Shown here piece by piece: positions 56,127 through 60,915 of a stretch of DNA of 64,000 bases (positions are counted from its first letter, which is position 1; the number at the start of each line of letters is the position of its first letter). Below the pieces are notes generated by a model. That model did not search any database. It was not told the origin of the DNA and saw only the letters and a program-made list of their open reading frames with translations. Both the position numbers and the translations under genes were made by a program. Origin of the DNA: Acidobacteriota bacterium (GTDB lineage: Bacteria > Acidobacteriota > Blastocatellia > UBA7656); contig JBFMDH010000012.1 of NCBI GenBank assembly GCA_040754075.1, positions 1-64,000 on the forward strand, given 5' to 3'.

Positions 56127-58184
56127 TCATTGCGGGCGGGTGTAGAGAAAGACATCGGTCTCGATGCCGCTGCACAGCCGCACCTTGATCATCACAGTTT
56201 GACCGGGCGTGATTCTCTTGAAGCCTTTCTTGACGATGAGCACAGTTGAAGGATTATCGGGGTCGAGCTTGGTCGGTTGCTCCACTCCATCAAAGAGGAC
56301 GACCGGGCACGCGGCTTGCGGCTCGAAGCCGTTGGGCGCGATTGCGCTTGATTGGGTTGCGCCGGTTGAATTAACGGTGACATTCAGATTCTTGCCATCT
56401 CGCGTAACGCCGGTGATTTCATTCTTTGTCACCTCGTGCCGCACGTTGGCTTTTGCAAGAATGCTATTTTTCTCAACAACTGTAAAATCCCCGCCGATCT
56501 TATAAAGTAGCTCGGCATTATTTTGCACAGACCCCGATGACATAGCACGGAGAACCAGAATGACTTCTTTGATTTCCATGTTTCTGACCGTTAAGGTTTT
56601 AGTAAGCGCGCTTTCTTCTATGCCCAGCCCTGGATCTTCGATCCAAAGAGGATTTTTAGCTTGATCAAAGCTGACTTTTTCAGAGAAGAAATCCAAGATC
56701 GAGAAATCAATAGTGTTGTCTGTGAGGTTCTTTATCGTGAACGTGTAGGTGATTAAATCGCCCTCCACCGCCGGGTCGGGCGAAGCGGTCTTTGTGAACT
56801 CGACAAACTTCTCGTTCTCGTGCTGGGTGATCGTAAAGTCGTCGTTTCGGGTAACCGGGTTGATGCTTGTGCCGACGGTGATAAGATTAGCCCCGTATAT
56901 GATTCCATCAAAGGCGACGTTATTCCCACCCGCAGCCGTATCAAAGGTGTACTCGCCCTGTAACCCCCAGTTTGAATCCAGACGGCCATTACGATCCCAC
57001 TTGGTTATGCCCAAATCGAAATTCGCTCCGCTGCCAGCCCAACCTGCGCCAACGATGTCACCGTCCGGCTGAATGTCCAAATCGAAAAGCAGGTCTCTGA
57101 CACCATTAAAATCAAATGTCGCCAAACCTTGGTCGAAGAGCGAAGGGATGAGATTGCCGTTGAAATCGAGAGCAGCGACTGCAAAATCCTCCGCTCCCGT
57201 GTTGATTGCGTTGCCGCCGACGATTAAGTGGGGTACATTCACCGGCGCGACAGGTTGCCGGATGGAGATAGCCTGCGCGCCGTCCTGCTTGCCAAAATAA
57301 TCTATTTCGCGTTTGCCATCACCGTCGAAGGCAGGATTTAAACTGCCGTTAGCGAGGTTCAATCGAACGATGCCGAAATTGGAATCGGTCGCGCTCTTGA
57401 CCGCGAACCCGCAAACAAAGATGTTCTCGTTGTCAATCGCCAGATCAATCGCTCGGTCAGCGTTGCCAAAGTCAATCCGCACCACGCCATTTGTACCGAA
57501 AGTATTATCGAGTGACCCGTCCGCCGGGTTGAGTCGTACAATGGTGAATTCCAGGCTGTTCTGCGGTCGGGAATCACCGACTGCGACAATCTTGCCATCC
57601 TCTTGCATAGCCACCTTGAAGGCTTCCGACGTCGAGCCGAGATCCAACACGACTTTGCCATCCTGATCGAATGTCGTGTCGAGTGAGCCGTCCGGGTTGA
57701 AACGCGCGAGCGCCCACTGCCTCTCGCTACCGTTTGTTGTGAACCCTGAGACGACGATCTTGCCATCAAGTTGGATGGCTATGCCCCTACCCCCGTCGTT
57801 TGCGCCAAAGAAATCTGTTGTCACCTTGCCTTCTTGACCAAATGCCGGATCGAGATTTCCATTCTCGTCGTAGCAGGCGAGCGCGAAATCCGTGCCACTG
57901 CCGGGTACGGTGGCAGACCCGGCGGCGATGATCTTACCAGTCAGCGTGACGGCGACGGCTTGCGCCGAGTCATTGCCTCCGGCAAAGTCAGTAAAAACGA
58001 CGCCGTTCGTGCCAAAGCCTGCAACGAGGTCGCCGGGGGCAGCCAGCACACGGTTAGGCGTAATCACCGAGGTCATCGGTAGGAAGAGTAAAAAGAACAG
58101 CCACCCCGCCCAAACACCCGCCAGCAAGGTTCTGTGCTTTTGAAGAAATCTTCGATTTTTGATAGCAAATTTTCGATTGATCAT
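56127..58184 (-). CDS. Secreted delta-60-repeat protein
   Basis: A 685-residue protein with a signal sequence or anchor (~20-48: LLAGVWAGWLFFLLFLPMTSV). Residues ~55-440 hold about seven repeats of the delta-60 type (motifs such as NPDGSLDTTFDQDGKVVLDL, FGTNGVVFTDF and DGKIVAVG), expected to form beta blades. A DUF11-like Ig domain follows (~440-540: FTKTASPDPAVEGDLITYTFTIKNLTDN), then a C-terminal domain (TGVTRDGKNLNVTVNSTG...). GGAGG seven bases before ATG 58184 supports the start. Function is unknown; it is probably extracellular and may be surface-displayed. Confidence 0.8.
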   Translation of the reverse strand: MINRKFAIKNRRFLQKHRTLLAGVWAGWLFFLLFLPMTSVITPNRVLAAPGDLVAGFGTNGVVFTDFAGGNDSAQAVAVTLTGKIIAAGSATVPGSGTDFALACYDENGNLDPAFGQEGKVTTDFFGANDGGRGIAIQLDGKIVVSGFTTNGSERQWALARFNPDGSLDTTFDQDGKVVLDLGSTSEAFKVAMQEDGKIVAVGDSRPQNSLEFTIVRLNPADGSLDNTFGTNGVVRIDFGNADRAIDLAIDNENIFVCGFAVKSATDSNFGIVRLNLANGSLNPAFDGDGKREIDYFGKQDGAQAISIRQPVAPVNVPHLIVGGNAINTGAEDFAVAALDFNGNLIPSLFDQGLATFDFNGVRDLLFDLDIQPDGDIVGAGWAGSGANFDLGITKWDRNGRLDSNWGLQGEYTFDTAAGGNNVAFDGIIYGANLITVGTSINPVTRNDDFTITQHENEKFVEFTKTASPDPAVEGDLITYTFTIKNLTDNTIDFSILDFFSEKVSFDQAKNPLWIEDPGLGIEESALTKTLTVRNMEIKEVILVLRAMSSGSVQNNAELLYKIGGDFTVVEKNSILAKANVRHEVTKNEITGVTRDGKNLNVTVNSTGATQSSAIAPNGFEPQAACPVVLFDGVEQPTKLDPDNPSTVLIVKKGFKRITPGQTVMIKVRLCSGIETDVFLYTRPQ

Positions 58185-58284
58185 CGTACCCTCCATTATT
58201 TCTATTCACCTAAATCAGCACGCCAAAGCGCCTGCTCTGACACCCACCCTTACCGTTGGGCTACCATACAAGCCACCCTTCTGT

Positions 58285-58557
58285 TTATTCAGCCTGACGT
58301 GAAGGTGATAAAAGGGAAATGAGGCAAATCCATAAACATCCATCAGGATTTTCATTGAAATGAAGTTGTCCACACGCCATCAACTGACGAAGCTTGAGCA
58401 AATTTTCTCCGGTTAATACTTCAGCTTCTTCCAGCGTGAGCATTGGCGTCTTCTCGCCGCAGGTCGCACACCTTCCGGTTGTCCGATTGATTGGCAACCG
58501 GAAGATGCAGACCTCTTCACGTTCAATACTAATCTCTATGCACCGAGAAGTTTTCAC
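58285..58557 (-). CDS. Small CxxC protein with HTH-like segment
   Basis: A 90-residue protein starting at GTG 58557, with AGGAGAG six bases upstream. CATCGEK gives one CxxC, with further Cys at MACG and CLWIC; two or more could bind a metal. The middle, MLTLEEAEVLTGENLLKLRQLM followed by GQLHF, resembles the MerR/excisionase-type helix-turn-helix in which TxEEAAxLTG precedes a GxLxF turn. I recall similar small proteins near winged-helix regulators in Acidobacteria, but this is not checked. It is divergent from the 58727 regulator and shares its upstream region. Confidence 0.6.
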   Translation of the reverse strand: MKTSRCIEISIEREEVCIFRLPINRTTGRCATCGEKTPMLTLEEAEVLTGENLLKLRQLMACGQLHFNENPDGCLWICLISLLSPSRQAE

Positions 58558-58692
58558 GCCGCTCTCCTATTGTTCCCGAAGTAAACTTGCGATAAAATCG
58601 GCTCACCCACGGGCTGCTGAACCGACGGTTCCCGCGAATTTCCGACAATCTCACCAATACAGCAAAGGCGGTTCAGAAATCCCAAAAGACGG

Positions 58693-58720
58693 GTGAAAAT
58701 TTTGTGAAAGTTTGGTGAAA
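58693..58720 (+). promoter_or_regulatory. Putative winged-helix operator: three GTGAAA direct repeats at 11-bp period
   Basis: GTGAAA occurs at 58693, 58704 and 58715, spaced exactly 11 bases apart, ending seven bases before the ATG of the winged-helix regulator. OmpR/PhoB-type winged helices bind direct repeats of one helical turn, so self-regulation is likely. Confidence 0.6.
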
Positions 58721-58726
58721 GCGGCG

Positions 58727-60655
58727 ATGGATACTTTCAACCAACAGATTTTCGAGTTTGGCGAGTTCCGTCTGGATGCCGGCGAACGATTGCTCTCACA
58801 TAATGGCGCCGCCGTATCGCTTACGCCCAAAGCGTTCGAGACTCTGCTGGTGCTGGTGCAAAACCACGGCCACGTCCTAACCCGCGAACAATTGCTTAAC
58901 GAAGTTTGGCGAGATGCTTTCGTTGAAGAAAACACCCTGACGCAAAATATCGCCGCTTTGAGAAGAGCCTTGAGCGAACGCCAGAACGCCCGGCAATACA
59001 TCGAGACAGTTCCTAAAGTTGGCTATCGCTTCGTCGCCGGCGTGCGGGAACTCGGCAAGCAAAATGGCGAGATGTTGATTGCGCGGCGCACTCGCGAGCG
59101 TCTGGTAATCAAAGCTCAGGAGGCAATCGTTGATAGAAGAGATGCGGATGAGCTAACCATTGTTCGACAACCGCCGAGTTTGTTTGAGATGGTCAAGCAA
59201 CGTCGCCGGTTAATTCTTGCCATCAGCACTTTCGTATTGTTTGCAGTGGTGACGACTGCCTTGATCACCGCTAACTTTTCAACGCCGGTTGCCTCAAACC
59301 CGCCGATCAAATCCATTGCGGTGCTGCCCTTCCAAACGTTGGACACCAGTGAGCGCGAGGCATACCTTGGACTGGGAATGGCAGATACGTTAATAACCAA
59401 GATCAGCAACATTGGGCAAATTAAAATTCGCCCGACCAGCGCCATCCGCAAGTACAGCGATCAGGAGCAGGATTCGCTTGCTGCCGGTCGTGAACAGCGG
59501 GTGGACGCGGTGCTTGAAGGGAGCATTCAAAGGTCAGGCGATAAGATGCGGGTGACGGTGCGGCTCCTGAGCGTAAGGGACGGGTCGCCGCTTTGGGCAT
59601 ATCGGTGCGATGAAGTATGCACTGATTTGTTTGATGTTCAGGATTTAATCACTGAACAGGTGGCTGGAGCTTTGACGCTGAAGCTGACCGGACAGGAGAA
59701 AGCGCGGCTGACTCAACGTCACACCGAAAGCCTTGAGGCATATCAAGCGTACCTCAAGGGTCGCTATTTCTGGAATAAACGGACGCCGGAGGATTTTAAG
59801 AAAGCTGCCGAACATTTCCAGCAGGCAATCACGATAGACCCGAACTACGCCCTGGGTTATGCGGGGCTGGCGGACTGTTATTTTTTCAATGGTGAAGGAG
59901 CGAAAACGCTTGAAGCGTTGAGCAAAGCCCTGGAACTTGATGATCAGCTCGTCGAAGCGATTACCACTCAGGCATATTATCTTTCGGTTCGCTGGGACTG
60001 GGCGAGCGCCGAGACGCTGTTCAAGCGAGCCATCGAGTTGAATCCAAACTATCCGCCCGCCCATCATTGGTATGCTTTCCATCTGGCAGCGCTGGGGCGC
60101 TTTCCTGAAGCCATCGAAGAGATCAATCGGGCTAAGGAACTTGATCCGCTTTCGCTCATCATAAACACTGACGTAGGGCACATCCTCTATTTCTCGCGCC
60201 AGTATGATCAGGCGATTGAAGCATACCGGCGGGTACTTGAGATGGAACCGAACTTCAGCGTGGGGCGGTGGCGTCTGGGAGAAGCTTACGAACAAAAAGG
60301 GATGGTTGAGGAAGCCATAGCAGAGTATCAGAAGGCGCTCAGTCTTTCAAAAAACCCGACCATAGAAGTGTGGCTTGGACATACCTACGCCGTTTCAGGC
60401 AAGAAAGATAAGGCACATAAAATTCTTGGTGAATTGGTGAAGATACATAAACGCGATCCCCGATGGTTTTATGAAATAGCTTTAATCTATGAAGGTCTGG
60501 GCGACCGAGAGCGGGCTTTTGAATGGCTTGAAAAGGCTTTTGAGAATAAAGAAGAAGCAAGCCTAGCCCTCCTCAAAGCAGAGCCGATGCTCGACAGCTT
60601 GCGCGCGGACAGGCGATTCACTGAATTGCTGAACCGTATCGGTCTGGTCGAATGA
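58727..60655 (+). CDS. Membrane-bound winged-helix (OmpR/CadC type) regulator with TPR domain
   Basis: The 642-residue protein has an N-terminal winged helix (~5-105: FEFGEFRLDAGERLLSHNG, LTPKAFETLLVLVQNHGHVLTREQLL, and TVPKVGYRFVAGV), one membrane helix at ~163-185 (LILAISTFVLFAVVTTALITANF), a periplasmic FlgO/TolB-N-like domain (~195-325: IAVLPFQTLDTSE, DAVLEGSIQRSGDKMRVTVRLL) and TPRs (~340-635). Transmembrane DNA binding resembles CadC. It probably senses a periplasmic state and controls nearby genes. Acidobacteria have many such proteins. ATG 58727 is preferred over GTG 58715 and TTG 58712, which lie in the operator-like repeats. Confidence 0.88.
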   Translation: MDTFNQQIFEFGEFRLDAGERLLSHNGAAVSLTPKAFETLLVLVQNHGHVLTREQLLNEVWRDAFVEENTLTQNIAALRRALSERQNARQYIETVPKVGYRFVAGVRELGKQNGEMLIARRTRERLVIKAQEAIVDRRDADELTIVRQPPSLFEMVKQRRRLILAISTFVLFAVVTTALITANFSTPVASNPPIKSIAVLPFQTLDTSEREAYLGLGMADTLITKISNIGQIKIRPTSAIRKYSDQEQDSLAAGREQRVDAVLEGSIQRSGDKMRVTVRLLSVRDGSPLWAYRCDEVCTDLFDVQDLITEQVAGALTLKLTGQEKARLTQRHTESLEAYQAYLKGRYFWNKRTPEDFKKAAEHFQQAITIDPNYALGYAGLADCYFFNGEGAKTLEALSKALELDDQLVEAITTQAYYLSVRWDWASAETLFKRAIELNPNYPPAHHWYAFHLAALGRFPEAIEEINRAKELDPLSLIINTDVGHILYFSRQYDQAIEAYRRVLEMEPNFSVGRWRLGEAYEQKGMVEEAIAEYQKALSLSKNPTIEVWLGHTYAVSGKKDKAHKILGELVKIHKRDPRWFYEIALIYEGLGDRERAFEWLEKAFENKEEASLALLKAEPMLDSLRADRRFTELLNRIGLVE

Positions 60656-60760: not shown

Positions 60761-60841
60761 TACGCTGAAAAGTTTTTAGTGTGCCAATAAAAGCACAAAG
60801 AAAATTTGGGCATTCGTAAAAGGGGTAATTCAATATGCGAG

Positions 60842-60915
60842 TCGGGACGACTGGATTTGAACCAGCGACCTCTTCCACCCCAAGGAAGCGCGCTACCGGG
60901 CTGCGCCACGTCCCG
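60842..60915 (-). tRNA. tRNA-Pro (anticodon GGG)
   Basis: From 60915 on the minus strand: CGGGACG acceptor, GCGCAGCCCGGTAGCGC D arm, anticodon arm CTTCC-TTGGGGT-GGAAG (anticodon GGG), T arm CTGGTTCAAATCCAG, and CGTCCCG plus A at the 3' end. CCA is not encoded. Confidence 0.94.

Follow-up and report, generated by a model that had tools for sequence, protein, structure and literature searches.

Transmembrane transcription regulators are widespread, and only a minority of them have known DNA targets. Regulators of the CadC/ToxR type feature an N-terminal OmpR-type winged helix, a single hydrophobic segment, and a C-terminal sensor-like part (PMC10269533, PMC5430869), a layout shared by the regulator described here. 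CadC occupies two sites arranged head-to-head at its target promoter cadBA, and its docking model places sequence-specific contacts at His66, Gln70, and Lys95, with Thr69 arranging His66 (PMC5430869). In the family of the present regulator, by contrast, the gene of the regulator itself carries the units, which number at least three and run head-to-tail. ToxR resembles the present regulator as a membrane-bound winged helix on direct repeats, as judged by a reference title in PMC10269533 and by the structures 8b4b–8b4e; it differs in that the targets named in a title there are the promoters of toxT, ompU, ompT, and ctxA, with no private operator at its own start. Neither "autoregulat" nor "binding site" appears as a term in the main text of PMC10269533 on CadC/ToxR-type regulators.

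The OmpR/PhoB-type regulators PhoB and PmrA have the same fold and, as here, 6-bp direct-repeat half-sites with the recognition helix in the major groove; both bind head-to-tail on one DNA face with two domains, and the base contacts of PhoB are Thr194, Val197, Arg201, and Arg219 (PMC3973317). The present family differs from PhoB and PmrA in that it lacks a receiver, has three to six units where those have two half-sites, and uses a word of its own for each paralogue. The MerR family has been analyzed under the name Prot-DNA-Korr with evidence of the kind used below, in which mutual information links columns of the domain to positions of the site and so indicates contacts (PMC5045206). The fold differs from that of MerR, and the sites are taken here from each gene's own self-repeat, with no prior motif.

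The locus lies in a stretch of 64,000 nucleotides from an acidobacterium, referred to as the window, and features the following elements:

56127–58196, minus strand: protein that looks secreted and has beta-propeller repeats (DUF5122), start at 58196
58285..58557, minus strand: divergent ORF of 90 aa, with an intergenic region in common with the regulator
58570..58598, plus strand: candidate promoter TTGTTC-N17-TAAAAT, weak (3/6 and 5/6; a strict scan accepts none)
58693..58698, plus strand: putative operator unit 1, GTGAAA, from pattern scans of the window and the genome
58704..58709, plus strand: putative operator unit 2, GTGAAA, 11 bp after unit 1
58715..58720, plus strand: putative operator unit 3, GTGAAA, ending 6 nt ahead of the ATG at 58727
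58727..60655, plus strand: winged-helix/TM/TPR regulator of 642 aa, CadC/ToxR-like
58808..59032, plus strand: OmpR-type winged-helix domain (PF00486, E 6.2e-23), residues 28–102
58925..58972, plus strand: recognition-helix segment EENTLTQNIAALRRAL, residues 67–82, from covariation and predicted fold
59210..59266, plus strand: hydrophobic segment, residues 162–180, likely transmembrane (Kyte-Doolittle mean 2.60 over 19 residues)
59717..60565, plus strand: TPR-repeat region, about residues 331–613, from Pfam matches
60841–60915, minus strand: tRNA-Pro (anticodon ggg), close behind the 3′ end of the regulator gene

The regulator carries its winged helix at the N terminus, and no receiver family is found among its 21 Pfam matches. 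The receiver-less N-terminal winged helix and the single transmembrane segment following it, the latter judged from hydropathy alone, place the protein with the CadC/ToxR-like regulators; the N-terminal phospho-receiver domain of OmpR/PhoB two-component regulators is missing, and at the locus direct repeats about 6 bp long recur every 11 bp, as in operators of the PhoB type. Against the NCBIfam CadC equivalog NF007540 the protein scores 99.2 bits, below the cut-off of 400. The nearest solved structure to the winged-helix domain by sequence is CadC (5ju7, E 1.1e-15), and the predicted fold of the domain (pLDDT 89.5) matches CadC and then ToxR, with PhoB also among the matches. A model of the full-length regulator made without an alignment was poor (pLDDT 49.3) and is left out of the argument.

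The preliminary description had reported three copies of GTGAAA at an exact 11-bp period next to the start of a winged-helix regulator, and the coordinates are confirmed. The pattern GTGAAA-N5-GTGAAA-N5-GTGAAA occurs exactly once in the window. With up to three mismatches it is matched twice, against 0.09 expected from 100 dinucleotide shuffles, the second match being the same repeat shifted by one unit. The genome (7,579,192 bases) holds one exact triple, two with at most one mismatch, and four with at most two, and the reversed pattern gives none in the whole genome. The runner-up is located at C15:119723–119750 on the minus strand, directly upstream of another winged-helix gene. At up to one mismatch the triple is found in only 3 of 39 genomes of relatives, the present one included, and the GTGAAA word itself is therefore rare. 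A GTG at 58715 and a TTG at 58712 are in frame with the ATG at 58727, and a start at either would put the third repeat at or inside the start; the ATG is favored because of the domain position and the relatives.

The 11-bp arrangement recurs in the family. Receiver-less winged-helix genes were sampled from the window's family, class, and phylum (Acidobacteriota), together with some GTDB loci, of which three of five passed the filters. The loci are mostly best-scoring matches rather than random ones, and only part of the listed matches was fetched. The 245 genes kept from 263 distinct domain hits exclude 13 of receiver type and 5 others with a domain score of at most 75 or less than 150 nt of upstream DNA. 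In the 180 nt before the domain, the self-similarity of three hexamers was scored at a given lag with no motif assumed, a strong triple having at least 16 of 18 matches. At lag 11 such a triple is present in 114 of the 245 genes and absent from 131; the counts are 17 at lag 10, 12 at lag 12, and 21 at lag 22, which is a harmonic. Internal stretches of the same genes reach 2 of 166 at lag 11, and dinucleotide shuffling (20 rounds) yields on average 2.5, and never more than 7, of 168. Tiles of the window carry a lag-11 triple in 4 of 355 cases, and the stretches before its 47 mechanically listed ORFs in none. A later batch of 77 genes, collected once the pattern was known, shares the class of the others and is only partly independent; 35 of these genes have the triple at lag 11, and at most 5 at each of seven other lags. 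Receiver-type genes measured at the true start reach 16 at lag 11 in 2 of 14 cases and 17 in none.

Within Acidobacteriota, the lag-11 triple is carried by 101 of 209 genes of the window's class and by 13 of 36 genes from outside it; about half of the sampled acidobacterial paralogues have such a repeat with a hexamer of their own. The repeat is present in 84 of 172 genes with an obvious transmembrane segment and also in 28 of 66 relatives that lack one, so the rule does not involve membrane anchoring. None of 15 plasmid-borne relatives (of 1127 records found) reaches 16 at lag 11; 14 of them lie outside Acidobacteriota—12 Pseudomonadota and 2 Gemmatimonadota, next to 1 Granulicella, an acidobacterium—and at least three (L322, L324, and L328) look like other architectures.

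Among the 114 operators, 76 consist of three units and 38 of four to six. Of the 97 genes with an in-frame ATG, 31 (the window gene among them) leave a gap of 5–7 nt between the last hexamer and that ATG, and 22 have exactly the 6 nt of the window. In L114, L040, L212, and others, an extra copy of the hexamer is often seen 12–13 bp downstream of the triple, ending just before the ATG. The gap has a second peak near 18–20 nt, and such an extra unit, out of phase with the others, may account for it. Closeness to the start codon in those 31 genes is what an RNA-level leader element would show, acting on translation through an RNA-binding protein or through pairing. We regard such an element as very unlikely, because the period of 11 bp is about one turn of DNA and because, as set out below, changes of the hexamer go with changes in a DNA-recognition helix.

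While the period is constant, the hexamer differs from gene to gene. In the genome of the window, 13 of 22 winged-helix genes reach at least 16 of 18 in a lag-11 triple, and further words found there at the same period are TCTAAA, TAAGAA, TCAAAT, GGAAAA, and CTTCAA. Single paralogues carry CTAAAA (L026), CTCAAA (L019), GGAAAA (L022), and TAAGAA (L017), next to GTGAAA at L142. In the genome scan with the GTGAAA triple that had been proposed, the two best sites lie at winged-helix genes; the paralogues mostly carry other hexamers. GTGAAA is not the motif of the family, and a paralogue scan with it mostly fails. When the repeats are brought into register by an iterative profile blind to the proteins, the common unit reads C-T-N-A-A-A followed by a five-base spacer. 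This CTNAAA-like frame would also suit one shared global regulator binding all the repeats in place of the adjacent proteins. That reading is extremely improbable, as the hexamers differ among the paralogues of one genome and track the recognition helix of the adjacent gene.

The word of the window itself is kept in the one close relative found. Locus L036, from another family of the same class, has a winged helix 65% identical to that of the window over 76 residues, and its repeat GTGAAAGTTGGATGAAAGTTTTGTGAAA ends 6 nt before the ATG of a winged-helix/TPR gene. Presence of the repeats upstream of orthologues had been set beforehand as a refutation test, which the claim withstood here. The divergent neighbor at L036 (1666–3027) is a different secreted, subtilase-like protein, named from its translation, so that this relative lacks the divergent partner found beside the window gene. 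At L035, a GTGAAA triple lies upstream of a short receiver-like frame, likewise named from reading the translation. The C15 paralogue (L002/L031) has a near-GTGAAA triple before its start with a different recognition helix (SLVQCLKEAR); this site is possibly a target of the window regulator, or a case of convergence.

The variable bases of the hexamer covary with the recognition helix. Mutual information was computed for 108 of the 114 operators, after dropping domains at least 80% identical, between 84 variable domain columns (15 in the recognition helix) and seven operator positions, which amounts to 588 pairs. The top 8 pairs all lie in the recognition helix, as do 12 of the top 13, the ninth being T20 outside the helix. 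Gln73 of the window protein marks the strongest column, paired with positions 3 and 5 of the operator (z 9.7 and 9.1); next come Asn69, Thr72, Leu78, and Ala76; in the recognition-helix segment Asn69, Thr72, Gln73, and Ala76 covary with the operator. Aligned to 5ju7, with a chain offset of three extra residues deduced from Trp58 and Arg50, Gln73, Asn69, and Thr72 correspond to Gln70, His66, and Thr69 of CadC. Relative to PhoB, Gln73 aligns with Val197 and Ala77 with Arg201.

Several helix classes go with a particular base. T/S-Q helices have C at position 3 in 16 of 18 cases when the Ala76 column holds Tyr or Ser, and G in 3 of 3 when it holds Ala, as in the window protein. V helices with no preceding K show A or T in 13 of 14 cases, and all 10 genes with F or Y in the Gln73 column have G at position 5. 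Only 6 of 10 A-Q helices go with G, and Arg helices are inconsistent, with G in 12 of 18. A K-V class (after the first Leu) was considered as a clean GGTAA reader and rejected: the word is plain in 3 of 7 genes (L016, L046, and L179), partly shown by L075, and not shown by L087, L126, and L219.

Because the sample consists of related genomes, the covariation has to be weighed against chance and common ancestry, that is, related genes having inherited similar upstream DNA along with similar helices. Some ancestry is indeed visible, since spacer similarity follows the rest of the domain (r 0.258) more than the helix (0.148). The core hexamers behave in reverse. In a comparison of 5778 gene pairs, the similarity of the operator cores follows identity at five residues of the helix (r 0.271) and does not follow the rest of the domain (r 0.042); the partial correlation of core and helix given the rest of the domain is 0.272, and 0 of 1000 permutations are as high (maximum 0.131). 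Five random variable columns outside the helix reach at most 0.169 in 1000 draws. For 35 later-fetched operators, the nearest helix neighbor predicts 62.6% of the hexamer bases, compared with 55.7% for the nearest neighbor by the rest of the domain and 49.8% for a random gene; the register was fitted on all 114 operators together, so that this test holds out the prediction and not the register.

Genes sharing four helix residues in otherwise diverged domains predict each other's hexamer at a mean percentile of 0.838 (n = 46), and at 0.713 for the 37 genes left out for a weak repeat of their own. Looser twins, with three of the four residues, reach 0.74–0.77, and 0.67 for the weak-repeat genes. 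Four random non-helix columns, full identity required, average 0.549 over 50 sets, one of which reaches 0.749 against 0.748 for the looser helix twins. Twins whose remaining domain is less than 50% identical still predict each other. Together with the shuffled level of 2.5 of 168 for the repeat itself, these results make chance or common ancestry a highly improbable explanation. The recognition code is imperfect, because several Arg twins give bad predictions and the C15 paralogue pairs GTGAAA with a different helix.

On this sequence evidence, the winged-helix protein encoded next to it very probably binds the repeat of the window; the earlier proposal to that effect gains support from the repeat at L036 and from the helix covariation. 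Concerning the sign of regulation, which is less firmly indicated than binding, the position of the operator is informative. The candidate promoter of the window sits 100 bp upstream of the first repeat, and promoter-like pairs are enriched 81–100 bp upstream of the first repeat in 23 of 114 genes versus 6.0 in shuffles, with 26 sense and 8 antisense −10 matches; the genes used for this test are those in which the bin had first been noticed, and a second bin, near −30, is high as well, on either strand. Between the repeats and the ATG no enrichment of promoter-like pairs is found. As the gap in the window is 6 nt, there is no room for a promoter between the last unit and the ATG.

PhoB sites are direct repeats facing the gene. 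The units of the present family face the gene in the same manner, as would suit positive autoregulation, in which the same protein on the same repeats activates from a promoter overlapping them or just downstream, like PhoB at the pho box. In 48 of the 97 genes the gap is at least 12 nt long, into which a −10 element followed by a short leader might fit. Activation is nevertheless unlikely, given that 31 of the 97 genes, the window included, offer only 5–7 nt and that the promoter-like pairs are enriched upstream of the repeats. Because of the operator position and the upstream promoter-like pairs, repression is more likely than activation. The suggestion of negative autoregulation in the preliminary description accordingly agrees with where the operator lies, and found no further support.

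Its extension to a wider regulon is not supported. Exact GTGAAA-N5-GTGAAA pairs are found at only five places in the genome: two in the window operator, one at the C15 winged-helix gene, and two inside coding genes. The secreted gene starting at 58196 (there called delta-60) had been named as a possible member; no sign of an operator repeat is found near it, and nothing links the operator to it. The divergent 90-aa ORF has no match in Pfam or NCBIfam, and its co-regulation across the common intergenic region is possible. With the generic CTNAAA triple, no genome-wide enrichment is seen at up to two mismatches (23 + 18 versus 27 + 33 for the reversed pattern). At up to one mismatch it occurs at seven places, three of them at two winged-helix genes (L026 and L019); the contexts of L285 and L288 were read among the other four. 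L285 (C22:81832–81859) is the genome's only exact generic triple besides L026 and lies between a zinc-finger anti-sigma factor-like and a secreted metalloprotease-like gene, both named by reading. It is possibly a real target of some paralogue.

We consider it likely that the GTGAAA units are the operator of their own regulator, occupied head-to-tail on one face and most probably serving negative autoregulation. In this arrangement, the winged-helix domains would sit head-to-tail on one DNA face, one per 11-bp turn, with each recognition helix entering one hexamer of the general form CTNAAA—GTGAAA in the window—and Gln73, Asn69, Thr72, and Ala76 would decide the variable bases. The operator would directly precede the start codon; should the weak promoter hold, transcription would begin about 90 bp upstream of the operator. 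Once occupied, the operator would most likely block the regulator's own gene, modulated by whatever the TPR part senses. The number of subunits and the signal are presumed parts of this reading. For the family, each regulator may likewise bind its own start region, probably as a repressor.

OmpR-type winged-helix operators of direct repeats, autoregulation, and CadC/ToxR-like membrane regulators are all known kinds. In the open-access literature, taken mostly at the level of titles, no family was found with paralogue-private multi-unit operators at the start codon that covary with the recognition helix. The family pattern is well supported by sequence statistics. A broader reading, to which we incline with some reserve, is that these genes are self-addressed cassettes: directly ahead of its start codon each would carry a private operator, made of three to six units of 11 bp, and the recognition helix of its own protein would spell the hexamer. 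A dozen or more such pairs, with different words, would occur side by side in one genome. Together they would form a natural, phylum-wide recognition code of the OmpR/CadC winged helix—V for CTAAA or CTTAA, T-Q with Tyr or Ser for CTCAA, and T-Q with Ala for GTGAAA—from which operators would be predictable and specificity reprogrammable. If this is true, the targets of a regulator could be sought without knowing its signal, by means of the DNA word that it displays at its own gene. The choice of bases by OmpR/CadC-type helices would then be testable on about a hundred natural protein–operator pairs, many of which live in one cell, where cross-talk must be avoided.
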